DNA of 61,727 nucleotides from the NCBI GenBank assembly GCA_030950375.1, contig JAUZRN010000023.1, positions 1-61,727 of the forward strand. Reading direction: 5' to 3'. Shown piece by piece: positions 50,056-61,727 of this stretch. The stretch's first letter is position 1, and each line of letters begins with the position of its first letter. This DNA is from Rhodothermus sp. (GTDB lineage Bacteria; Bacteroidota; Rhodothermia; Rhodothermales; Rhodothermaceae). Position numbers and translations under genes: made by a program. A model generated the notes under the pieces. That model did not search any database and was not told the DNA's origin. It was given only the letters and a program-made list of their open reading frames with translations.

Positions 50056-50086
50056 TTGACATAGAAAGCCACGGCCGCTTTATTTA
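50056..50086 (+). promoter_or_regulatory. Possible promoter of the CARF-HTH gene
   Basis: TTGACA (50056-50061) followed after 17-19 bases by a TTTATTTA segment (50079-50086). It lies about 40 bases before the ATG at 50124 and would exclude the upstream GTG start at 50025. Confidence 0.45.
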
Positions 50087-50123: not shown

Positions 50124-51044
50124 ATGCTGGTCATGTCTCGCAGGGGGCCAGTCTTAATGGCCACGCTGGGCGAACAACCCCAGGTGGTTACGCTCACGTT
50201 AGACTTGCTTATGGCACAGCAGGTAGCCTTTGAGGAGGTCATCCTGCTTCATACGGCTCCCCACTATCCGGCACTTTCACGCTCATTGGAGCGACTACAG
50301 GCCGAACTGACCCGGTGGCCTGCCTATAACGGATTACAGATCCGTCAGGTGATTTTCAGTGATGAGCACGGAAAAGCGCTTACAGACGTTCGCACAGAGC
50401 AGGATGCTCGCCAGGTGTTTCGCATTTTGTTTCGAGAAGTACTGGCGATTAAACGACAGCGGCGAACAATCCATCTGCTCATCGCAGGCGGCCGAAAAGT
50501 AATGGCGGCCTACGGGACAGCCGTCGCGCAATTGCTGTTTGAGGCGGAAGATCGTCTCTGGCATCTCATCTCTGAGGCGCCGCTTTTAAAAACGGGCCGC
50601 ATGCATCCCGAACCTGGAGATCCGGTGCATCTCGTGCCAGTTCCCTTCGTCCGCTGGAGCGCCCTGCCACCTGCCGCAATGCACCTGGCCGTTACGGAGG
50701 ACCCATTTGAAGCGATGCACCGGCATGAGATCTGGCTTGAAGAAGAAAGCCGCCGGCAACGCGCCTGGTTTCTTATGCATGAGCTCACACCCAGCGAACG
50801 CACACTGCTGATGACGCTGGCTCGTACCGGTGCCTCCAACCGCGAACTGGCCCAGAAGCTGGGCCGTCGTCCTAAAACGGTGGCCAACCAGCTGGCCGTC
50901 ATTGTCGATAAATATCGGGCCTTTTCAGGTCTGGCCGATAAAACACCGATATCACGCGCAGAGCTTGTTGCACACTTTGCCTCAGTTGTGGAGCAGCTTG
51001 AACGGAAAGCTCAGGGAGCAATATCCCATAAGACAGTAGGCTAA
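50124..51044 (+). CDS. CARF-domain protein with C-terminal LuxR-type HTH
   Basis: This is a probable sensor of cyclic oligoadenylate made by Cas10. The 306-residue protein begins with a Rossmann-like CARF domain of the NE0113/Csm6-like type: GPVLMATLGEQPQVVTLTLD (residues 8-27) and HLLIAGGRKVMAAYGTAVAQ (about 117-136), then DRLWHLIS. Residues 221-284 form a LuxR/GerE helix-turn-helix (LTPSERTLLM, ASNRELAQKLGRRPKTVANQL). There is no HEPN RNase motif. ATG 50124 follows AAGGA at good spacing. A GTG at 50025 would add 33 non-conserved residues. Binding of the ligand and a DNA target are inference. It sits 75 bases before cas10. Confidence 0.85.
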   Translation: MLVMSRRGPVLMATLGEQPQVVTLTLDLLMAQQVAFEEVILLHTAPHYPALSRSLERLQAELTRWPAYNGLQIRQVIFSDEHGKALTDVRTEQDARQVFRILFREVLAIKRQRRTIHLLIAGGRKVMAAYGTAVAQLLFEAEDRLWHLISEAPLLKTGRMHPEPGDPVHLVPVPFVRWSALPPAAMHLAVTEDPFEAMHRHEIWLEEESRRQRAWFLMHELTPSERTLLMTLARTGASNRELAQKLGRRPKTVANQLAVIVDKYRAFSGLADKTPISRAELVAHFASVVEQLERKAQGAISHKTVG

Positions 51045-51119: not shown

Positions 51120-53354
51120 ATGGAAGCAGGAAACATAGCCTATCTGGCCACGCTCCTGTATGCAGGAGGCCTGCTCAAGTATTATGCCGCCGAAGAGCAA
51201 CGGCCAACCGGTGTTGATGAGCTACCCCTGCTAACGGCGGTGCTGGAAAAATGCCCTGCATTTGCTGCTTATGCCAATCCTCTTCAAGAGGCCGGAAAGC
51301 AGGTAGCCGTATCGCTACCCTTTCAGAGACCTGATACCTGGCTGGAACCCCTGCTTCAATTTGTGCAGCTTCCGAAAAAAGGAAGGGCAGACGCACGATG
51401 GGGGTATCGACCCTGCTCGCTGGCCGATGGTATTATCTATCCCACCCAATCCCAAGAGATGGCCGATGGCTCGGCTGCCTGCAGGCAGCTCTGGCAAGAC
51501 CTGCTGAGCGAAACGGCACGTACACTGCAGCCTCTGATTAATTACGACGCCGCGCTGGAAACTCTCTATACGCTGTTAGAAAAATACACATCCTACGTAC
51601 CAGCGCCGTTTGAAGGAGCGCGTGCCATCTCGCTGTTTGACTTTGCGCGCATAGCAGCAGCGCTTCGGCTGTGCCAGCTACGTGCCGAAAAGGAGCCGTC
51701 GGTTCGTCTGATCAAAGGGGACCTTTCAGGGATCCAGGCTTTTATCTATCGCGAACTGCGCGGTGAGGAAACCGAAAACCCCGCCCAGTTGCTGCGGGGA
51801 CGCTCCTTCTTTGTCACGCTGCTGGGACGTACCATCGTGCGCTATTTACAACGTCGGTTGCAACTCCCCGACGGCTGTGTGCTGTTCTGCAGTGGTGGGC
51901 ACTTTCTCATGCTGGTGCCCGAAACACCTCAGGTAACACAACAACTTGAAGAGGTAGACCGACAGCTTAACGAGGCGCTTTTCCAGGAGCTGAGTGGTGC
52001 TATTCAACTGGTCCTGGCTTCCGTAAAAGCCAATTCCTCCGAAGTTGAGCGTCAGTCCACTTACGTACTGCAACGACTTGAAGAACAACTTCAGCGGGCC
52101 AAACTGCGTAAAGGCTGGAGCATACTTGACCGACTTCTTGAAGGCCCGGTCCCGTCAGATTCCGCCATTGGAAAACTGGATCGCATTGGACGCGCCCTGC
52201 CTTTCACCCAGTACCTGATTGAGGTGCCCGATACAAACCGTCAGGCGGTTCCTGACGAGGTTCGCGAATCTCTGGAACTCCCCGGCTTTGGAGTAAGCTG
52301 GTGGTTTGTCGAAGAAGACCGGTTAGCTCGGGTGCTGACACACCTGAACGACGTCCGGGCTACCCTTTTCAATCTGCAGACCACTCGTATTCCTGAGACC
52401 ATCGCTTCTGTGGGTTGTCGTTTTATGCCGTCCGGTACCTTTATTCCTATGACCGAAGTGGGGACTGACCGGCGCCCACTCACCTTTGAAGAGCTGGCCC
52501 GAATTGATAGCGAAAATTATCCGCTGCTGGGCTTCCTGCGTATGGACGTAGACAACCTGGGGGCGCTCTTTGTGTTGGGACTGCAGCCGACGCTCTCGGC
52601 GTTACCTTTTTCGCTGCATCGCATGGCTGCCCTCTCGCGAGAGCTGGATCGTTTCTTTGGAGGTCACATCAACCAGCTGGCCCGCGGGCACGACATCTAC
52701 CTGGTCTATGCCGGCGGCGACGATCTGTTTGCTGTGGGCTCCTGGGTACGCGTGCTACGCTTTGCCCGAAGTGTACAGGAAAAGCTAAGAGCATATACCG
52801 GGTATAATCCTTCGGTGACCATCTCGGCCGGACTCTCGGTCCATAAGGAACACTTCCCGATAACTGTTGCTGCTGAAACGGCCGGTGAAGAAGAAGATCG
52901 CGCTAAGGAAGCAGGCAAAAATCGTATTGCGATATTTGAGACACCAGTTGCCTGGGATCAGCTCCAATCGCTGATCGACAACCTCGCAGAACCACTCCTG
53001 GAGGTGATCCAGCAATCCGACCAGCTTCCTGAAGACCAGCGCATTCCACGCACGTTTTTGCATACGCTGTTGCGCTATAGCCAGGAAGTACTTGACCGGA
53101 AAGACCAGGGCGCATTCGGTCAGGTCAGAGCAGTCAACCTCAGAGCGCTGGCTCGGCTGAACCACCTGCTGCATTATACCTTTGCCCGGCGTGGAGTGAG
53201 CGAGGCGCTGTTAGCACAGGAAGCTACCGACCAACCGCTGGTGCAGTTAGCCCGGGGCTTCCTCCTGGAGCGTCCGGACCGAAGCGAATGGTTCCGCACG
53301 TTCATCATTCCGGCTGCTTACGTGTTGCTGAAAACCCGAAAACAACGTGACTGA
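51120..53354 (+). CDS. cas10: Cas10/Csm1 with intact cyclase motif but degenerate HD domain
   Basis: Cas10 is the large subunit of the type III-A effector complex. The 744-residue protein has KGDLSGIQAFIYREL (near 199-213), LLRGRSFFVTLL, MDVDNLG (475-481) and YAGGDDLF with GGDD at 532-535, the palm site that makes cyclic oligoadenylate from ATP. In the N-terminal domain the usual LLHDIGK reads LLYAGGL (residues 12-18), so both His and Asp are lost. The later LYDH motif reads LFDF. DNase activity is therefore unlikely. It heads the csm operon and ends eight bases past the alternative GTG start of csm2. Confidence 0.95.
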   Translation: MEAGNIAYLATLLYAGGLLKYYAAEEQRPTGVDELPLLTAVLEKCPAFAAYANPLQEAGKQVAVSLPFQRPDTWLEPLLQFVQLPKKGRADARWGYRPCSLADGIIYPTQSQEMADGSAACRQLWQDLLSETARTLQPLINYDAALETLYTLLEKYTSYVPAPFEGARAISLFDFARIAAALRLCQLRAEKEPSVRLIKGDLSGIQAFIYRELRGEETENPAQLLRGRSFFVTLLGRTIVRYLQRRLQLPDGCVLFCSGGHFLMLVPETPQVTQQLEEVDRQLNEALFQELSGAIQLVLASVKANSSEVERQSTYVLQRLEEQLQRAKLRKGWSILDRLLEGPVPSDSAIGKLDRIGRALPFTQYLIEVPDTNRQAVPDEVRESLELPGFGVSWWFVEEDRLARVLTHLNDVRATLFNLQTTRIPETIASVGCRFMPSGTFIPMTEVGTDRRPLTFEELARIDSENYPLLGFLRMDVDNLGALFVLGLQPTLSALPFSLHRMAALSRELDRFFGGHINQLARGHDIYLVYAGGDDLFAVGSWVRVLRFARSVQEKLRAYTGYNPSVTISAGLSVHKEHFPITVAAETAGEEEDRAKEAGKNRIAIFETPVAWDQLQSLIDNLAEPLLEVIQQSDQLPEDQRIPRTFLHTLLRYSQEVLDRKDQGAFGQVRAVNLRALARLNHLLHYTFARRGVSEALLAQEATDQPLVQLARGFLLERPDRSEWFRTFIIPAAYVLLKTRKQRD

Positions 53355-53379: not shown

Positions 53380-53766
53380 ATGAGCAAGCACAATGTGACC
53401 ATCCCGGACGATCTGGCCCGATGCACGCCCGAAGAGATCGATGCGCTGGCAAATCAGATGGGGCGTGATTTTACAGACATTAAAACCGCCCAACTACGTA
53501 ACGTTTTTGCCCACATCAATCGCATGCGAACGCGCTGGCGCCGCGACCAAGACCGTGAGCAGATCCGGCGTGATCTGGTCATGCTCAAACCCCGCCTGGC
53601 CTATGCCGGCGGCCGCCAGCAAGCGGTGCGCCCCATGAGTGACACCTTCCGCAATGCGATTGATGCTGTATTGAAGTCAAATAATTTTGACGCAGCGTTG
53701 CGCAACTTTTTCGACCTGATCGAAGGCGTCGTCGCCTATCACAAATACTATGGAGGTACAGACTAA
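53380..53766 (+). CDS. csm2: Csm2 small subunit of the type III-A complex
   Basis: Csm2 (Cas11-like) forms the inner filament of the Csm complex. The core TAQLRNVFAHINRMR and LKPRLAYAGGRQ are family signatures in an all-helical protein of about 128 residues. A GTG at 53347, overlapping the end of cas10, would add 11 residues. ATG 53380 is the conventional start. It lies directly between cas10 and csm3, with the 3' end overlapping an alternative csm3 start. Confidence 0.9.
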   Translation: MSKHNVTIPDDLARCTPEEIDALANQMGRDFTDIKTAQLRNVFAHINRMRTRWRRDQDREQIRRDLVMLKPRLAYAGGRQQAVRPMSDTFRNAIDAVLKSNNFDAALRNFFDLIEGVVAYHKYYGGTD

Positions 53767-53779
53767 ACCTGAAAGAGCC

Positions 53780-54553
53780 ATGGCCCGCTTTCTGGGAAAT
53801 ATCATTCTGAAGGGCAAGATGAAATGCCTGACGGGGCTGCATATAGGCGGTTCCAAAGAAAAATTTGAGATCGGAGGGGTCGATCAGCCCGTCATTCGCG
53901 ACCCGGTCACGAACGAACCCTACGTCCCCGGTTCCTCCCTCAAAGGCAAAATGCGGGCGTTGCTGGCCTTTGCCCTGGGAAAAGCCGATAAAGACCCGAA
54001 CTTTAAGACGTTCGATCCGAACTGTCCGCTTCAGCGGGTATTTGGCACGTCGGCCGAAGCACGCAACATCGGCCCTTCACGCCTGATCGTACGCGATGCC
54101 TTTGCGGACGCGGAAACCCGGAGGATGTGGGATGAACTGGATACCGAGCTGCTCTACACCGAGCTCAAAGCAGAAAACAGCGTGGACCGCCTTACTTCGG
54201 CGGCCAATCCACGCTTCCCGGAGCGCGTCGTGCGGGGCTCTCGGTTTAATGTGGAGTTTGTTTTTGGTGTCTATGAGCTGGAGGACGTTAAATACTTCCG
54301 CTATGTTATAGAAGGCCTGCGTCTACTGGAGCATTCCTGGCTCGGGCGCAGCGGTACGCGAGGGTATGGGCAGGTAGCCTTCCAGCTGGCTGAGCCATTT
54401 GTGGTAACCCTTGAAGACTACCGAACCGGCAGCGAGGCCTATCGAAAGGCCAGCCAGCCCCATGAAGCGCTCTCGTTCTCGCTTCGTCCCTCCGATATTG
54501 ACGAGCAGCGCATTGAGCAACTACAGGAAGCATTCACCTCGAAGGTGGAATGA
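53780..54553 (+). CDS. csm3: Csm3 backbone subunit and target-RNA nuclease
   Basis: Csm3 (Cas7 family) forms the crRNA-binding backbone and cuts target RNA every six bases. From ATG 53780 the protein has 257 residues beginning MARFLGNIILKGK, which aligns with known Csm3 N-termini. ATG 53750 is in frame but adds a non-conserved decapeptide. LTGLHIGG and the catalytic aspartate Asp35 in GGVDQPVIRDP are intact, followed by VPGSSLKGKMRALL. RNA cleavage should therefore work. The stop overlaps the csm4 start as ATGA. Confidence 0.94.
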   Translation: MARFLGNIILKGKMKCLTGLHIGGSKEKFEIGGVDQPVIRDPVTNEPYVPGSSLKGKMRALLAFALGKADKDPNFKTFDPNCPLQRVFGTSAEARNIGPSRLIVRDAFADAETRRMWDELDTELLYTELKAENSVDRLTSAANPRFPERVVRGSRFNVEFVFGVYELEDVKYFRYVIEGLRLLEHSWLGRSGTRGYGQVAFQLAEPFVVTLEDYRTGSEAYRKASQPHEALSFSLRPSDIDEQRIEQLQEAFTSKVE

Positions 54554-55557
54554 CGTTTCAGGTTATCTATTTATATCCCCGGGCTTCGTACCGGACGCCC
54601 CTGCGTTCCGATACGCTCTGGGGCCTGTTGATGGTCGCTCTGCGTGTGGTAGCAGGCGACGAGGAGGCCGATGCGTTTATCGAAGCCTGCGAGGCAGGAC
54701 GTCCTCCGGTGCGCATCTCATCGGCGTTTCCGTTTCTTATAGCGCAGACCGATGAGGGTAAAACGGTGCGGCGTCACTTTTTCCCCAGGCCAGCGCTTCC
54801 GCCGCCTCCGCTGTCTCGTCCAGACACCCTGGATCCGGACAGGATCTTTGAACAGATGCGTCAGGGCAAGCAAACGCGATCCATCCAATGGCTACCACAA
54901 TCGCTCTTTGAGGCGGTACTGCTGGGCAAGCTGGACGAAACTGGCCTGCAATGCGCCCTCCAGGAGCACCGTGAGTCCTGGCCACAACTGTACCTCCAGG
55001 ACAACCTGCATACTTCAATAGACCGCCTGACCGGAACCACCCGCATGGAAAATGGAGCTGGCCAGCTCTTCTACAGCCGAGAGTTTTACCTGGGACGCAG
55101 GCAGGGGCTGTTCTTTCTGTGCACTGGCGAGGTTGAACGTCTGCTGCCAGCCATTCGCTATCTGCATCATACCGGCTGGGGAGGGGATAGCTCGGTAGGC
55201 AAGGGGCACTTCGACTGGGAGCGTGGTACGCTAACGCTTAACGTGCCGGATCAACCCACACACCGTGTCCTGCTATCCCTCTACAGTCCAACCAGCGAGG
55301 AGCTGACTCACCTGCGGCATCATCCAGAAAAGACCTGGTACCGCCTGGAGCGACGTCAGGGCTACGCCGGCGCTCATCGCCTTCCCGGTGGTGTCTATCG
55401 CAAACCGCCACTTTATATGCTGGCCGAAGGGTCGATCGTGCCCGACCCGGGGCGCCCGCTCTGCGGCTCAGTACACAGAGTGTTGCGCTCCGGCCAGGTA
55501 TGGATCCGCCACAGCGGTCTGGCACTGGACGTGCCCGCTCGTATCCAGGGAACATAG
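54550..55557 (+). CDS. csm4: Csm4 (Cas5-like) subunit
   Basis: Csm4 binds the 5' handle of crRNA and joins Cas10 to the backbone. The 335-residue protein starts with a RAMP-type strand and TPLRSDTLWGLLMVALRVV (residues 16-34). Then come SSAFPFL, the family block LHTSIDRLTGTT, and the Gly-rich HTGWGGDSSVGKGHF loop around 210-224. The gene overlaps csm3 by four bases, so expression is coupled. Confidence 0.92.
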   Translation: MTFQVIYLYPRASYRTPLRSDTLWGLLMVALRVVAGDEEADAFIEACEAGRPPVRISSAFPFLIAQTDEGKTVRRHFFPRPALPPPPLSRPDTLDPDRIFEQMRQGKQTRSIQWLPQSLFEAVLLGKLDETGLQCALQEHRESWPQLYLQDNLHTSIDRLTGTTRMENGAGQLFYSREFYLGRRQGLFFLCTGEVERLLPAIRYLHHTGWGGDSSVGKGHFDWERGTLTLNVPDQPTHRVLLSLYSPTSEELTHLRHHPEKTWYRLERRQGYAGAHRLPGGVYRKPPLYMLAEGSIVPDPGRPLCGSVHRVLRSGQVWIRHSGLALDVPARIQGT

Positions 55558-55573: not shown

Positions 55574-57214
55574 ATGCCCATTACCCTGAAGCTCACTACA
55601 CGGTCACCGGTCCATATCGGCACGGGCCGAGAATTGGAAGCCTTCGAATACCTGATCCACGATGGCTACTTCTGGCGCCTGCATCCCGACCGGCTGACCA
55701 TGTTCCTGCTCGAAGCTGCCGGCAATGAAGCCGTCGATCAGTTCGCCAGCTGGATTAGTCAGGTAGCTGAACGGCTTACTACTGCGCCCAATAACCGGGA
55801 GCAATCACGCCTCCGCCAGTCTATCACGATCCGAAACTTTCTTCGGCATATCGCGGGCCAGTCCAATCTGGAACAGCGGTTTCTGGCCAGCCTGCCCGAG
55901 CTGGCTTCCTACTACATGCCTACCACTCAGGCTCATTTCAGACAGCTGATCCGGGAACAGCTCAAAACGCCGGATGGGAAGCTCTATGTGCCCGGCTCTT
56001 CCTTAAAAGGCGCACTTCGCACCTGTCTCCTCTACCAGGTATTGACAGAAGCCGACAAGAAAACGGTAAATCGGTGGCGCCAGCATTTTGCTGAAGAGCT
56101 GAAGCAGCTGAAAAAGAGAAAGCGAAAGGCCCAGTTTCTGGCAAAGTGGCTTGAACAGGAGGTTTTCTTCTGCGGTGTGCGACGCAGGGAGGATATAAGC
56201 TGGGGTGATGCACAGTATGACCTGTTGAAATTTCTGATGGTCAGCGACTCGACCGCGGTTGCGCCTGAAGAAAATGGTATGGTCTTGAATGTTAATCTCT
56301 ACCTGCCCGGAGCGCGACCTCAGCCACAGGCTCCACCCGTGGAGGCACTGGGCGTGGATGTTGCGCTGGAAGCTCGTATCGGATTTGAGGTACAGTTCTT
56401 TCAGACTGCCTGGAAACTTCTGCAGCAAAAGACGCAGGGAATGGGTAAGCAAATCTGGATAGAGTTGCCGGAGCGCTTTGAACGCCTCTACGGGTTGTCG
56501 CTGAAAGAAGCGCAGGCGCTTTCCACAGAAGAACTGGAGCGCCGGCTGTTGGCACGCGTGCGCACTGCGGTCCGGAATTTCAGCGAGGCGCTGCGCACGT
56601 TTGAAATCCAGTGGTGCCAGAGAGCCGAGCGAGGAACTACCAGTCTACTGGCCCGGCAGCTACAACATTTTTATGATAGTCTGCCTGACGACGCCATACG
56701 CCTTGGATGGGGCAGCGGCTTTGCCGCGGTCACCGCATTTCTGGCCCTGCGAGATGAACTGGAATGGGAGGAGACGCTCGAAGAACTGCTTGTCGCCCGC
56801 TTCCCTTCACGGAAAATTTCTACAGACACCTTCCCTCGATCTCGCCGCATGGCACCACAGAGAGGGGTTGTACCCCTGGCTTTACCACTGGGATGGATAG
56901 CGCTGGAATGGCCCGAACCGGCTCAGACGCCTGCCCGGGAAACAGCTGCAGCCAATGCCCCTGAGGAGCCGCTCCTCCTGGAGCGGATTGGACCACGTAG
57001 TCAAAACATTCTGGCTGAAGTGGTCGACAATACGAAGATGCCTTTCCTGATTCGGGTATTTGTGCGGGGACTGGAATCGAAGACATTTCGCTGTGGGGGC
57101 GCCCGGGCACAGAACCTGCAGATCGGGCAGCGACTCCTGGTAGAAGTAGCCGAATGGGACAAAAGAGGGAACTGTCCCCGAATGTTTCGGGTGCAGAGCC
57201 TCCGCGTCAAGTAG
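55574..57214 (+). CDS. csm5: Csm5 (Cas7-like) subunit with long C-terminal part
   Basis: Csm5 caps the 3' end of the Csm backbone and helps crRNA maturation. SPVHIGTGRELEAFEYLI (residues 11-28) and the RAMP loop YVPGSSLKGALRTCLLYQ are clear. At 546 residues it is longer than usual Csm5 proteins of about 350-400. The last 65 residues (NILAEVVDN, FLIRVFVRGLE, QRLLVEVAEW, FRVQSLRVK) look like an added small beta-barrel of OB type, possibly extra RNA binding. It is the last csm gene and converges with the TPR gene. Confidence 0.9.
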   Translation: MPITLKLTTRSPVHIGTGRELEAFEYLIHDGYFWRLHPDRLTMFLLEAAGNEAVDQFASWISQVAERLTTAPNNREQSRLRQSITIRNFLRHIAGQSNLEQRFLASLPELASYYMPTTQAHFRQLIREQLKTPDGKLYVPGSSLKGALRTCLLYQVLTEADKKTVNRWRQHFAEELKQLKKRKRKAQFLAKWLEQEVFFCGVRRREDISWGDAQYDLLKFLMVSDSTAVAPEENGMVLNVNLYLPGARPQPQAPPVEALGVDVALEARIGFEVQFFQTAWKLLQQKTQGMGKQIWIELPERFERLYGLSLKEAQALSTEELERRLLARVRTAVRNFSEALRTFEIQWCQRAERGTTSLLARQLQHFYDSLPDDAIRLGWGSGFAAVTAFLALRDELEWEETLEELLVARFPSRKISTDTFPRSRRMAPQRGVVPLALPLGWIALEWPEPAQTPARETAAANAPEEPLLLERIGPRSQNILAEVVDNTKMPFLIRVFVRGLESKTFRCGGARAQNLQIGQRLLVEVAEWDKRGNCPRMFRVQSLRVK

Positions 57215-57226
57215 CAAAAATATGAT

Positions 57227-58693
57227 TCAGGACAGGGGCGCGATCGTAAGCGCCGACCAGCCAGGACGGTTCTTTTTAAGATCCAAGGTGCGTTCAGCCA
57301 GGCCCTGAACCCTGGCGTTCCGGGGCAGCTTGAGCTGCGACGCAACCCCTGGGGGTACGAAAATACGATCACCTGTATCCGTCCTGACAAATGCAAAAGG
57401 CTTCTCTCTGACCGGTTGGTAGTGCCCCTGAAATGGCCGGACCAGTTCGGGGAGCGTTGCCTCGGGTCGGGGTTCCAGAGCAAGCACTTCGTTCCCCGCC
57501 ACCCTGAGACGGACAACCGTGCCCGGCGCCAGGGAGGCAACCTCTGGAAGATCCTGATGACGGGCGCTGCAGACCCGGGTAGGAGACAGCCGAATTACTG
57601 TACGCGCCTTTTCGGGTTGATGGCTGACAATCACCCCCATTTTCTCTTGGGTCGGCAGAAAGTAATCCCATCCAATCTGCAACGCCGGTTCCGTGGGGAG
57701 GTCGGTACGGTGCGCGCGTTCCCGGAACCAGGATTGCTGGCAGAGCCGGTGATAGAGATTTCCCGGGCGGGATACTTCCGGCGCCAGCTTTTGCGCAGCC
57801 TGTAGCTGCGCTGCCGCTTCATCATAGCGTTGCTGCTGTGCCAGCAGATTCGCCAGTGCCACATGGATCCGAAAGCGTACAGCAGGATGCTCATTGCGAG
57901 CACAGCGCAGCGCCTGCACCCATGCTGTCAGGGCATGAGAAGGACAGTCGGGAAGGTGGGCTTGTGCCACCTTTTTCCAGATCCAGCTCTTCTTCTGGTG
58001 TTGCACGAGCACCGGACGTAGCAACGGACGAGCTTCAGCGGCTCTACGCTGGCGCAGAAACACACAGGCCAGATGGTAACGAACCCACAGGGCGTCTTCC
58101 GGCAGTCGGGGCAGTGCTGCCTCGACCTGAGCCAACGCCCATCGAAATACCCGAGGCGCCAGCGCATGAGGCGGAAGCTTGGCCAGCGCTTTGGCCACGA
58201 ACTGGACCAGCCACTGCTCAAGTGACGGAAACGACCGGCCGTCTCTGACATAGGGCCTGCGATCTTCCGGACGCAACGTGTCGAACGCACGTACCCGATA
58301 ACAAAATACCAGCGCTCGCGCCCACGGCACAGGCAGCCGACACACCTGAAGTAACATGAGGCTCTGTAACAGATCTGCCTGATGCAATAACCTGAGCGCT
58401 TCATATTCGTCCAGCAGTTTTGCAATCTCGCGTGCCAGATGACCTGGAAGCCGATCCTGGACGTGCCGGCGAGCTCTGACCTTCTCCACGTGTTGTTTCA
58501 GGCGGTAGTACAGTTTCCAGCCCCATTCACGAGCCAGCAGACTATCCTGCTGAATCAGCGCGCGGTGTTGCTCAACAAAAGGACGGGCCCGCTCATATTG
58601 ATCATGAGAAAGCTCCAGAAACTCTCTGGTGCCCGGAGGATAATCCCCGATCAGAACGATTTTTAGCCTGTTAACGACGAAGATTTCTTCCAT
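57227..58693 (-). CDS. TPR-like helical protein with C-terminal OB/cold-shock-like domain
   Basis: I do not recognise an exact family. The 488-residue protein is mostly helical. The middle (about residues 180-330) has TPR-like repeats (WVRYHLACVFLRQRRAAEARPLLRPVL, FRIHVALANLLAQQQRYDEAAAQLQAAQ as pattern). The C-terminus (about 425-485) reads FQGHYQPVREKPFAFVR, RIFVPPGVASQL, RVQGLAERTLDLKKNRPGWSAL, resembling a cold-shock/S1-type nucleic-acid barrel. ATG 58693 is preferred. A TTG at 58711 overlaps the helicase stop. The close coupling suggests that the protein guides or regulates the helicase. Confidence 0.65.
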   Translation of the reverse strand: MEEIFVVNRLKIVLIGDYPPGTREFLELSHDQYERARPFVEQHRALIQQDSLLAREWGWKLYYRLKQHVEKVRARRHVQDRLPGHLAREIAKLLDEYEALRLLHQADLLQSLMLLQVCRLPVPWARALVFCYRVRAFDTLRPEDRRPYVRDGRSFPSLEQWLVQFVAKALAKLPPHALAPRVFRWALAQVEAALPRLPEDALWVRYHLACVFLRQRRAAEARPLLRPVLVQHQKKSWIWKKVAQAHLPDCPSHALTAWVQALRCARNEHPAVRFRIHVALANLLAQQQRYDEAAAQLQAAQKLAPEVSRPGNLYHRLCQQSWFRERAHRTDLPTEPALQIGWDYFLPTQEKMGVIVSHQPEKARTVIRLSPTRVCSARHQDLPEVASLAPGTVVRLRVAGNEVLALEPRPEATLPELVRPFQGHYQPVREKPFAFVRTDTGDRIFVPPGVASQLKLPRNARVQGLAERTLDLKKNRPGWSALTIAPLS

Positions 58694-58707
58694 GGGCCTG
58701 CGTGGGG

Positions 58708-60765
58708 TCAACCTTCAGATTGGAGCAGGGTCTGAATACGCTCGAACAGCGCGCCAGAAAAGGCACGACCCACCGGGCGGGCAGTGGTCCACTCCTGGCG
58801 GCGGTTATAGTAAAAATCGACGGTGAGGTTTTCTGTGCCCTGTCGGAAGTGGACGCGCAGGGCATAGGGCAAAGTCTCCCAGTGGACTACCTGAACGTCG
58901 GTATCTTTCAGACATTGCTGCACCCGTTCGATGAAGGCCTGGAGAAAAGGATCTGAGGGCAACTTCGCAGAAGCCGCTGGAGGGTCGAGCAGTACCTGAT
59001 GAAACAGCGCCAGAGCCTTTCGAGTGAGCGCTGGATCGTCGGCACCGCCCAGCCCGATTACCTGGCTTACCTTCCCGCTGGCGCGATAATAATACTGGAT
59101 GCGAGCCGTCCGATCATCCTGATACAGGTAATACCGAACGCTGTAGGGCAATTGCTCAACCTGTCGGACTTGAATACCCTGTCGCGTCAGAGCTTGTTGG
59201 AGGCGGTGATGGTACTCCTGCAGGAATGCTGTGGAGAAAATGGGGCCAGTGGATTCGGTTGACGGTGCCGGTGGATCGGGCTTTGTATTCACCATGGTGG
59301 GTTGCCACCGAAGGCGTGAGTAGGCGTCGAACTGCGGCGCTCCTACAATCCACAGCGCTTCCTGCGCGCGTGTAATCGCTGTATACACCCATCGGAAGAA
59401 TTCAGCATTCCGGTGATGTCTCCAATCGTCGAAAACGACCACTGCCTGCTGCCATTCGCCACCCTGCGCTTTGTGTACCGTAAGGACATAGCCGTAACGT
59501 ACATGCAGTGCATTGAAATACGGATCCTGAAGAAGCGCTAACTTGTATTCGGTCTGCTCGGGTTTGAGTTCCGGGTGACGCTGCTTAAAATCAATCAGCA
59601 GCGCCTGGAAAAGGTCGGGGGATGGTTGGCCGTCCGGACTTTCCAGCAGGTTCTCAAGGATTTTGCAGGGAATGCGTAACCGGGCGTTGGAATGCAGATG
59701 CGTAAGGACAACGTCTCGGAAATAAAGGTCAACAGGAGGTCGACCACGACGTCCAATGCGGCGATGCTCGCGTTGGGAGGCTACTTCTTCGACCCGCATC
59801 AGATCGCCGTTAAAAAGATTGTACCTGGGCGCATTACGGTTGATCAGAAGCAGATCTCCCGGTTGAAGGGGCAGGTCGCTGCGTCCCCACAGACGCTCCC
59901 GGATGGCTCTGTTCAGATTACGGGCCAGTGCGTTGGTACGACATAGCATAACCACTGATTCCTTTTGACGGTAGGACCGGACGACGAAGTCGAGCGCTTC
60001 GGTTATGGAGGCTGCACGAATACCTGGCGGATGCGGGGTAAGCTGAAACGTATTAAAACGCCGAGCGGCCAGCGCTTTCCGAAGCCGGGTTGCCACCTCA
60101 AGAATAGGATGATCGGCACGCTGTCGGTAAACGGTGTGCAGGTGAGCTTTCCATACCTCCAGGCCAAAATGGCGACGCAGGTAGCGAGGAGAAAGGGCTG
60201 GTGAAAGCGACTGACCGACCGGAGGAAGCTGTGCCGGATCGCCTATGAAAAGAATCCGTGTGGAAGGCGGTGCATTGCGTCGAGGCAACAGGCGCGTGTA
60301 ACGCAGTAGATCGGTCAATAATCGTCCTGATCCAAAACGGTACAGCTCTGTTTCGCCTTCAACATCGCCAATCATGGAAGCTTCGTCAATCAGCATCAGT
60401 TTGGTATCCGGATCGGCACTCCGTAGTTGGAAATGCAGGCGAATACCTATTAGCTCGGAAAAATCATCGGACGCTTCGACTGCTTTGAGTATGTGCACCT
60501 GACCGAGTACGTAGAGGAGGCTGTGCAGGGTGCGTGCCTCCTGCCCAATGCGTGAGGCGAGAATGCGTGCAGCCCTGCCCGTCGGGGCGGCCAACTGAAA
60601 ACGAATCGATTCTTTGGTCAGCCAGTTTACCAGATGGCGTATCAGGGTCGTTTTTCCGGTACCGGCGCTACCGGTTACGATAAAGATCGGGGGCGCATCG
60701 GGTGCGTTCAGCCAGCTCTGGATGCCTCGTATTACCTGATACTGTTCCTGGGACAAAGATTCCAT
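58708..60765 (-). CDS. RecD/Pif1-like superfamily 1B helicase with duplicated C-terminal domain
   Basis: This is an ATP-driven DNA (or RNA-DNA) helicase of about 685 residues. The set comprises Walker A VTGSAGTGKTTL, motif II LMLIDEASMIGD, GDPAQLPPVG, a 1B-type spacer and UvrD_C_2 with VLTVHKAQGGEWQQAVVVF and FRWVYTAITRAQEAL. After residue 510 come two related segments of about 80 residues (514-594 and 607-682), both with FLQ-x(7)-QQ, the LPY motif and an aromatic YYY/FYY strand. ATG 60765 is used. It forms an operon with the TPR/OB gene, opposite to the csm genes and beside the array. A defence role is inferred from place only. Confidence 0.85.
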   Translation of the reverse strand: MESLSQEQYQVIRGIQSWLNAPDAPPIFIVTGSAGTGKTTLIRHLVNWLTKESIRFQLAAPTGRAARILASRIGQEARTLHSLLYVLGQVHILKAVEASDDFSELIGIRLHFQLRSADPDTKLMLIDEASMIGDVEGETELYRFGSGRLLTDLLRYTRLLPRRNAPPSTRILFIGDPAQLPPVGQSLSPALSPRYLRRHFGLEVWKAHLHTVYRQRADHPILEVATRLRKALAARRFNTFQLTPHPPGIRAASITEALDFVVRSYRQKESVVMLCRTNALARNLNRAIRERLWGRSDLPLQPGDLLLINRNAPRYNLFNGDLMRVEEVASQREHRRIGRRGRPPVDLYFRDVVLTHLHSNARLRIPCKILENLLESPDGQPSPDLFQALLIDFKQRHPELKPEQTEYKLALLQDPYFNALHVRYGYVLTVHKAQGGEWQQAVVVFDDWRHHRNAEFFRWVYTAITRAQEALWIVGAPQFDAYSRLRWQPTMVNTKPDPPAPSTESTGPIFSTAFLQEYHHRLQQALTRQGIQVRQVEQLPYSVRYYLYQDDRTARIQYYYRASGKVSQVIGLGGADDPALTRKALALFHQVLLDPPAASAKLPSDPFLQAFIERVQQCLKDTDVQVVHWETLPYALRVHFRQGTENLTVDFYYNRRQEWTTARPVGRAFSGALFERIQTLLQSEG

Positions 60766-61120
60766 GACCAATCAGGATCTCTCCGAAGCTGTATTTTACG
60801 GGGCATCTGCGGACTTTTTCCAAAATGGAAATTCCAGAAGATCAACGTGCTTTCGTAAAAATAACCGATTTGCTTCTGCGCCATACCATGTAATTCTGGC
60901 GCATCTTCTGATAGCCTTTCTGGCAGCGCAGCCTGTGGATGGCGAGTTGATACAGGGATCGTGTGACTCACAGCAGCCCTTAGCAAGTGCTGTAGGATAT
61001 GAACTCTGTCTTCCATTTTGAGGGGAGACGATGCAGTCGCCGAAAGGAGAAAGCATTTAAGCAATCCTTGTAGAAGAGATGCGCACTACCAGGTGATGGA
61101 TCCTTCATCGAGAGATCAAG
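60766..61120. other. Non-coding or decayed stretch before the CRISPR leader
   Basis: No convincing gene is seen on either strand. The frames present lack family motifs and sensible starts. It holds a small inverted repeat TGTGACTCACA at 60962-60972, whose half-sites match those of the leader palindrome at 61184. It may contain the helicase promoter on the minus strand and remnants of lost DNA. Confidence 0.45.
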
Positions 61121-61308
61121 AGAACTTGATTGTTTTTAGGTGTTATTGTATCTTTAAGATAAATTTATTAGAGAGAGACAATATGTGACATTGAATTGTC
61201 ACAGGTCAGCGTTTGCCATTTCTTCATTGTTTTTTGACATTATGTATCATTTAAATCGCTGTTTTTAATACGAAAAAAGCCGATTTTTACAGAGAATGTT
61301 ACAATAGG
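61121..61308 (+). promoter_or_regulatory. AT-rich CRISPR leader
   Basis: The roughly 190 bases before the first repeat are clearly AT-rich with T-runs. They include a TTTTTTGACATTATGTATC segment near 61231-61249 with a -35-like TTGACA. Their place on the left, together with repeat orientation, indicates that the array is transcribed rightward from here. Confidence 0.7.
61184..61203. promoter_or_regulatory. Twenty-base palindrome in the CRISPR leader
   Basis: TGTGACA, six bases (TTGAAT), TGTCACA: perfect 7-bp arms. The length and symmetry are those of sites bound by LuxR-type dimers. The CARF-HTH protein is an obvious but untested candidate. Confidence 0.5.
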
Positions 61309-61727
61309 GTAGCAAGACCTGACCCCAAGAAAAGGGGATTACGACTAGCATGCCGTTGGGTTAAACTTACCGAAACCCACCGGGATACCATTGTAGCAAG
61401 ACCTGACCCCAAGAAAAGGGGATTACGACCGGTGATGTCTGGCCCGGATTACATAGAATCCGGGCTGAATGATGACTAGTAGCAAGACCTGACCCCAAGA
61501 AAAGGGGATTACGACATCAGGCCCTCCGGAGCCGTACGCCAGGCCACTACGATAAACTGGCCTGGCAGTAGCAAGACCTGACCCCAAGAAAAGGGGATTA
61601 CGACCGGATATCAATCCGACCCGACCATCCCTGGGCCGAGGCCCAGCGGCGGACCGCCTCGACGGCCCGCCGGGGAGTAGCAAGACCTGACCCCAAGAAA
61701 AGGGGATTACGACTGGCTCCACGTAGT
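61309..61727 (+). CRISPR. CRISPR array, type III-A, truncated by the window end
   Basis: There are five identical 37-base repeats, at 61309-61345, 61393-61429, 61479-61515, 61568-61604 and 61677-61713. The repeat begins GTAGCAAGACCTGACCCC and ends AAGAAAAGGGGATTACGAC, with a CCCC/GGGG hairpin. It resembles the Staphylococcus epidermidis type III-A repeat (CCCCGAAGAAAAGGGG core), which sets the plus orientation and gives ATTACGAC as the probable crRNA 5' handle. Complete spacers are 47, 49, 52 and 72 bases. A fifth is cut after 14 bases. All four complete spacers contain inverted repeats. The repeats show no decay, so the downstream end is beyond the window. Confidence 0.97.

Follow-up and report, generated by a model that had tools for sequence, protein, structure and literature searches.

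The question raised by this locus is what a CARF protein that ends in a helix-turn-helix (HTH) does at the head of a type III-A CRISPR operon. The window, the whole stretch of 61,727 nt that was analysed, is an entire contig from a 68-contig, 3.03 Mb assembly of a hot-spring Rhodothermus sp. The gene (50124..51044, +) encodes a protein of 306 aa, here termed CARF–LuxR, which was characterised by Pfam, PADLOC and NCBIfam searches, an orthologue alignment and an AF2 model (pLDDT 86). All six Rhodothermus orthologues share the same start Met, and the orthologue of R. marinus DSM 4252 (RMAR_RS14160, plasmid pRMAR01) has a 74% identity to the window protein. Alignment of the upstream regions revealed a sole conserved element, TTGACA (50056..50061, +), present in six of six Rhodothermus loci and likely a -35 box. 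The stop codon is followed after 75 nt by csm1/cas10 (51120..53354, +; TIGR02578, E 3e-122) and then by csm2 (53395..53766, +; Csm2_III-A, E 3e-26), csm3 (53780..54553, +; TIGR02582, E 1e-66), csm4 (54550..55557, +; TIGR01903, E 7e-39) and csm5 (55574..57214, +; TIGR01899, E 1e-26), the starts of csm2 and csm3 being set by homology. This csm1-csm5 set makes up a type III-A effector module, and a motif check of its Cas10 found the cyclase GGDD at residue 532 and bore out the lack of HD that the sequence-only reading had stated. The gap that separates CARF–LuxR from csm1 contains an imperfect hairpin shared by only the window and its closest relative. The CRISPR array (61309..61713, +), with 5 repeats of 37 nt, is cut by the contig end; a single spacer of 72 nt was observed at 61605-61676, the remaining spacers measuring 47-52 nt. 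Between csm5 and the array lies a TOTE-type helicase pair (PADLOC PDC-M16A/B; 57227-60771, -), likewise placed in G003 and G006, and on the R. marinus plasmid the helicase homologue is located elsewhere.

The N-terminal part of the protein is a CARF domain (residues 8-181; 50145..50666, +). Searched against the family profiles, as had been proposed from the sequence, the protein matched Pfam Cas_NE0113 (PF09623; residues 18-196, E 4.7e-32, 111.9 bits against a cut-off of 23) and, over its full length, the PADLOC CARF3 model (PDLC01851, 335 bits). The AF2 fold matched Cad1, Crn1/Sso2081, Sis0455 and more weakly Csa3 (VIA-align Z 17.8 to 13), with Z values of 17-18 to the Cad1 CARF and Crn1, so that profile and fold alike place this Rossmann-like domain in Cas_NE0113/CARF3. 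Of the two Sso2081 motifs, Gly9-Thr10-Ser11 (motif I) contributes to ring cleavage and Gly104-Arg105-Lys106 (motif II) binds cA4, and the motif I signature is said to separate degrading from non-degrading CARFs (PMC10018336). Aligned to Sso2081, the motif I position of the window protein reads G16-E17-Q18 (50169..50177, +) in place of the G-T-S of Crn1/Sso2081. The ring-nuclease Ser was found in none of 53 family members, its column being filled by Q (32), E (10), K (7), A (3) or N. The motif II for binding of cyclic oligoadenylate (cOA), G123-R124-K125 (50490..50498, +), is invariant as GRK across a 14-member alignment that includes the window protein; across the 53 members its Arg is present in 49 and lost in four, and its Lys position holds Lys or Arg in all 53, with Lys changed to Arg in 33. 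Motif II being kept and motif I lost, the window protein is therefore predicted to be a cOA sensor without ring-nuclease activity, contrary to the NCBI name 'CRISPR-associated ring nuclease' given to the R. marinus orthologue. Non-degradation stays a prediction because the Ser11 equivalent is not critical in Sis0455 (PMC10018336). The NCBIfam ring-nuclease models scored below their cut-offs (TIGR03642, 59.9 against 90.35 bits; TIGR02584, 40.3 against 80.65 bits).

A linker helix (residues 194-219; 50703..50780, +; AF2/DSSP) leads into a tetrahelical HTH of LuxR/GerE type without wing strands (residues 220-304; 50781..51035, +), assigned by GerE, PDB profile and Foldseek. With the window protein alone, Pfam HTH_38 was above cut-off (2.4e-7) and GerE below it (E=0.04, 14 against 23.5 bits), and the LuxR assignment therefore needed a family-wide test. 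Of 14 family members, 13 had a GerE match in Pfam, the best at 5e-10, and an HTH profile built from 40 members matched the structures of EL222, NarL, FixJ, VraR and VpsT (E 7e-12 to 6e-10), with DosR also among the matches. The matches listed by VIA-align for the full-length model were nearly all to CARF domains, so the HTH was modelled separately. AF2 predicted a long linker helix plus four helices with no wing strands (pLDDT 86 at full length, 91 for the C-terminus alone), and the top Foldseek matches of the C-terminal model were LuxR-type domains, with high probability and weak E-values of 0.05-0.2. The C-terminal HTH is LuxR-type and hence not Csa3-like in that part, which upholds the distinction that the sequence-only reading had drawn from the winged HTH of Csa3. 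Its description of a clear LuxR/GerE HTH at residues 221-284 stood for the type, through the family profile, and for the range as a core; it did not stand for clarity in the window protein by itself, where GerE is sub-threshold, and the model extends the domain to residue 304. No HEPN match was found in Pfam, PADLOC and NCBIfam searches of the window protein and the C-terminus is occupied by the LuxR HTH, in keeping with the proposed lack of a HEPN motif. An R-x5-H string (R213-H219) was considered as a HEPN motif and rejected, being part of the linker helix and not conserved beyond Rhodothermus.

CARF–LuxR had also been described as the only visible receptor of the second messenger. This holds for the window and, as regards PF09623 and TIGR02221, for the assembly, which contains one Cas10 and one NE0113 (PF09623) protein, CARF–LuxR itself, and in which no TIGR02221, Csx3, Cas1 or Cas6 was found. 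Beyond that it is unsafe, as the contig is cut inside the CRISPR array (61309-61727) and congeners carry Csx1 and Csm6-like genes. A cas1/cas2/cas6/csx1/csm6 block is absent from the assembly. G003, which has the same flanks (glycosyltransferase, miaA, xer), carries cas1-cas2-J-domain-cas6-csx1-csm6-csx1 after the array region, the closest relative G006 has the cas1-to-csx1 block on a contig that starts and ends in such arrays, and R. marinus and G002 likewise carry the block. CARF-HEPN Csx1 and Csm6-like genes were thus present in four of four congeners with a CARF–LuxR orthologue, and TIGR02221 in five of eight distant genomes bearing the family. On these counts CARF–LuxR was rejected as a general replacement of HEPN effectors. 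The suggestion that it had taken the place of a Csm6/Csx1 effector here finds no support either, the contig stopping inside the array, where the block begins in G003 and G006. CARF–LuxR usually accompanies HEPN effectors, and in the window strain a true loss and an assembly gap are both possible. The J-domain protein, flanked by cas2 and cas6, is conserved in type III-A loci of Rhodothermus (L069:7653-8528; L100:4246-5034). The R. marinus 'Csm6' (RMAR_RS14200; L069:10920-12116, -) was observed to combine an NE0113 CARF, motif I G-I-S and GGRK with no obvious HEPN R-x4-6-H; it may act as the true ring nuclease at the R. marinus locus.

Within the home phylum, of which 394 genomes were searched, only Rhodothermus gave matches over the full length of CARF–LuxR, the others being CARF only or LuxR response regulators only. 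A scan of genome contigs recovered full-length relatives from HRbin24, Poribacteria, a Thermotogae MAG, Anaerolineae, Atribacteria, KSB1 and one unclassified MAG. Within the phylum of HRbin24, which we take to be Chloroflexota, 56 of 400 genomes matched at E<=1e-15, nearly all over the full length. The tree resolved two clades, one of Rhodothermus with mixed phyla and one of Chloroflexota (clade 2), with modest deep support. No CARF–LuxR relative was found in the viral contigs and phage records searched.

Gene position was compared in the 46 informative loci, defined as those with at least 1.5 kb of downstream sequence. Of these loci, 39 had Cas10 or Cas7, taken as core type III genes, downstream on the same strand within 2 kb, and 27 of the 39 had one within 350 nt; beyond these 27, an intervening gene was present, e.g., a CARF nuclease or Cas6. 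The downstream operons were of types III-A (csm), III-B (cmr1-cmr2) and III-D-like. GGDD was present in 38 of 40 Cas10 copies of family loci, the other two being cut by contig ends, and the HD motif was absent from 28 of the 40, including all Rhodothermus copies. The occurrence of relatives at the same gene position in several phyla hints at a family of gene regulators under CRISPR alarm control that has been overlooked; as a counterpoint, the first-gene position may reflect mere co-inheritance with the operon. In 27 Chloroflexota loci (L150-L179; e.g., L157:6746-7918) a P-loop gene of ~390 aa lies divergently across a short intergenic stretch. Csx3 (PF09620) was identified in two of three of these P-loop proteins tested (E 9e-34 and 4e-13), with no Pfam match in the third. 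Csx3 corresponds to the ring nuclease Crn3 and in some proteins is fused with an AAA domain whose function is unknown (PMC12409355). The placement of the regulator between a putative signal-removing gene and a signal-making operon suggests a regulatory circuit, and is the main genomic argument for one. No Csx3 was found in the genome of the window, and weak matches in G003 and G006 sit in another locus.

CARF–LuxR is probably a second-messenger-controlled transcription regulator of its own type III operon and perhaps of the array leader. The sequence-only prediction of cOA-controlled transcription is supported by the pairing of a CARF domain with a LuxR HTH, the HD-less, cyclase-competent (GGDD) Cas10, the retention of motif II with loss of motif I, and the position at the head of the operon, which together indicate such control. 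Domains, motifs, gene order and Cas10 motifs are steps established by sequence or model; from them we infer the dimer, the ligand, the DNA target and the direction of control. CARF–LuxR would act as a dimer. On meeting target RNA, the Csm complex would have its Cas10 make cOA, probably cA4, which the CARF dimer would bind without degrading, and binding would change the hold of the paired HTH on operator DNA. The resulting shift in transcription would affect the regulator's own operon (CARF–LuxR–csm1-5) and might extend to the array leader and to further cas operons, and the effect of cOA could be activation or repression. In Chloroflexota the same regulator would also control the divergent Csx3/Crn3-type gene, so that sensing, defence and signal removal would scale together. 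Precedents are Csa3, which binds cA4 without ring-nuclease activity (PMC8844856), and MM_0565, a CARF protein that binds leaders and its own promoter (PMC7465815).

The leader of the window array contains a perfect palindrome, TGTGACA-TTGAAT-TGTCACA (61184..61203), that is a candidate operator. In all 13 leaders checked that belong to this repeat class, its core, GTGACA-N6-TGTCAC with at most one mismatch, precedes the first repeat by 124-126 bp; the leaders examined for other Rhodothermus repeats did not contain it. It also occurs just upstream of type I-E casA (G003, G004, G005), a type I-B cas6-cas8b operon and type I-G csb1. Besides the one in the window, sites in leaders and before cas genes are at L069:3412, 18835 and 27192, L189:3291, L192:5568, L194:12635 and L218:16553. 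Rhodothermus sequence drawn mainly from CRISPR regions (421 kb) gave 18 matches, where five control dyads averaged 0.6, and 754 kb of non-Rhodothermus loci gave none. Systematic stretches of G002 totalling 400 kb held two palindromes, one in an array leader and one before tnpB (L204:8829). On this distribution the palindrome looks like the site of a CRISPR-dedicated regulator and the operator of a CRISPR-wide regulon. The half-site TGTGA recalls CRP-family sites, with different spacing.

CARF–LuxR is a candidate binder of the palindrome, which is close in size to the palindromic sites of LuxR-type dimers; in addition, the recognition helix of CARF–LuxR hardly varies within Rhodothermus. Two observations count against it: G005 lacks the CARF–LuxR gene yet has the palindrome before its type I-E operon, and the palindrome is absent from the promoter of CARF–LuxR itself in the window. 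Of the possible targets named from the sequence, the leader thus gained a plausible operator, the link of that operator to CARF–LuxR being that of a candidate. A search of the own promoters at 53 loci, comparing the best inverted repeat with dinucleotide shuffles, gave p<0.1 in three (6%), with no excess. That a cOA-gated LuxR-type regulator retunes the Rhodothermus III-A arrays and the I-E, I-B and I-G cas operons through the palindrome after invader detection is a tentative idea that we hold to be doubtful; if true, bacteria would have a transcriptional CRISPR alarm response that spans CRISPR types.

Three other readings were weighed against cOA-gated control of the operon. The protein could be a ring nuclease of Crn1/Csx14 type whose HTH is structural, removing cOA with no control of transcription, as suggested by the NCBI name of the R. 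marinus orthologue, the sub-threshold matches to TIGR03642 (Csx14) and TIGR02584, the nearest solved CARF by sequence (Crn1/Sso2081) and the kept Lys of motif II. The motif I Ser of the degrading signature (PMC10018336) is, however, missing from 53 of 53 members, an absence that falls short of proof given the Sis0455 result, and a ring nuclease would be redundant in clade 2 beside the separate Csx3-type gene; we regard this reading as distinctly unlikely. Alternatively, CARF–LuxR could regulate the type III operon with a CARF that does not respond to cOA, being constitutive or tuned to another ligand. Here the case of Csa3, whose DNA binding in vitro was left unchanged by cA4 (PMC8844856), counts against a cOA-gated reading, and the CARF pocket varies at the Arg and Lys of motif II as described. 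Set against this are the intact motif II of the window protein and the GGDD found in 38 of 38 Cas10 copies uncut by contig ends, and we consider a regulator deaf to cOA unlikely.

LuxR-type HTH domains are overwhelmingly promoter regulators. This, and the tight divergent promoters shared with Csx3-type genes in clade 2, argue against a cOA-gated effector that acts on invader or nucleoid DNA (by standing as a roadblock on DNA of a phage, or by recruiting Csm or nucleases) and not on host promoters. Such an effector would fit the failure of the own-promoter search to find an operator and the argument that for many CARF-wHTH proteins the target may be DNA and the role not transcriptional (Makarova 2014, PMC4012209), and we judge it very improbable. 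The reading we prefer is cOA-controlled transcription. Its significance is that a CARF–LuxR family which is widespread in bacteria and leads type III operons is a testable candidate for alarm-signal feedback on CRISPR expression; the R. marinus orthologue RMAR_RS14160 is accessible to experiment, and a candidate operator is available.

Among known systems, archaeal Csa3 (type I-A/III, TIGR01884) is the one cOA-responsive transcription factor characterised in the reviews consulted, with an equivocal response to cA4. It is likewise CRISPR-linked and joins a CARF sensor to a C-terminal HTH, and the CARF folds match with a Z of 13.6, but its HTH is MarR-like and winged, whereas CARF–LuxR is wingless, tetrahelical and bacterial and heads type III operons; TIGR01884 gave 18 bits on the window protein against a cut-off of 60. 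MM_0565 from Methanosarcina mazei also combines a CARF with an HTH and recognises both CRISPR leaders and the promoter of its own gene (PMC7465815), but it is archaeal, has a winged HTH and neighbours a type I-B system. The Cas_NE0113/CARF3 family (PF09623) shares the CARF domain above the Pfam cut-off and also takes in the Csm6-like RMAR_RS14200, with its motif I G-I-S and no LuxR HTH. Crn1/Sso2081 is nearest in its CARF by both sequence (E 7e-7) and fold (Z 17), and CARF–LuxR differs from Crn1 and Csx14 in lacking the motif I Ser and in carrying a LuxR HTH. The LuxR/NarL/FixJ regulators (VpsT, EL222, DosR) resemble it in HTH sequence and fold; their sensor is a receiver, PAS or autoinducer domain, where the window protein has a CARF. 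VpsT is itself a LuxR regulator of a second messenger, c-di-GMP. The concept of CARF regulators among NE0113 proteins dates from 2014, when these and Csa3 were predicted to be direct transcription regulators, with the winged HTH named and LuxR not mentioned (PMC4012209). A recent survey that put CARF transcription factors aside counted 133 cyclase-competent, HD-less type III loci without a known effector (PMC11229360). Our literature search, outside which the 2020 CARF classification lay (10.1093/nar/gkaa635), returned no paper describing a CARF–LuxR protein. Compared with these systems, what appears new is the combination of a LuxR-type HTH with motif I loss, the lead position kept across type III subtypes, the pairing with a divergent Csx3-type gene and the palindrome in the leader.
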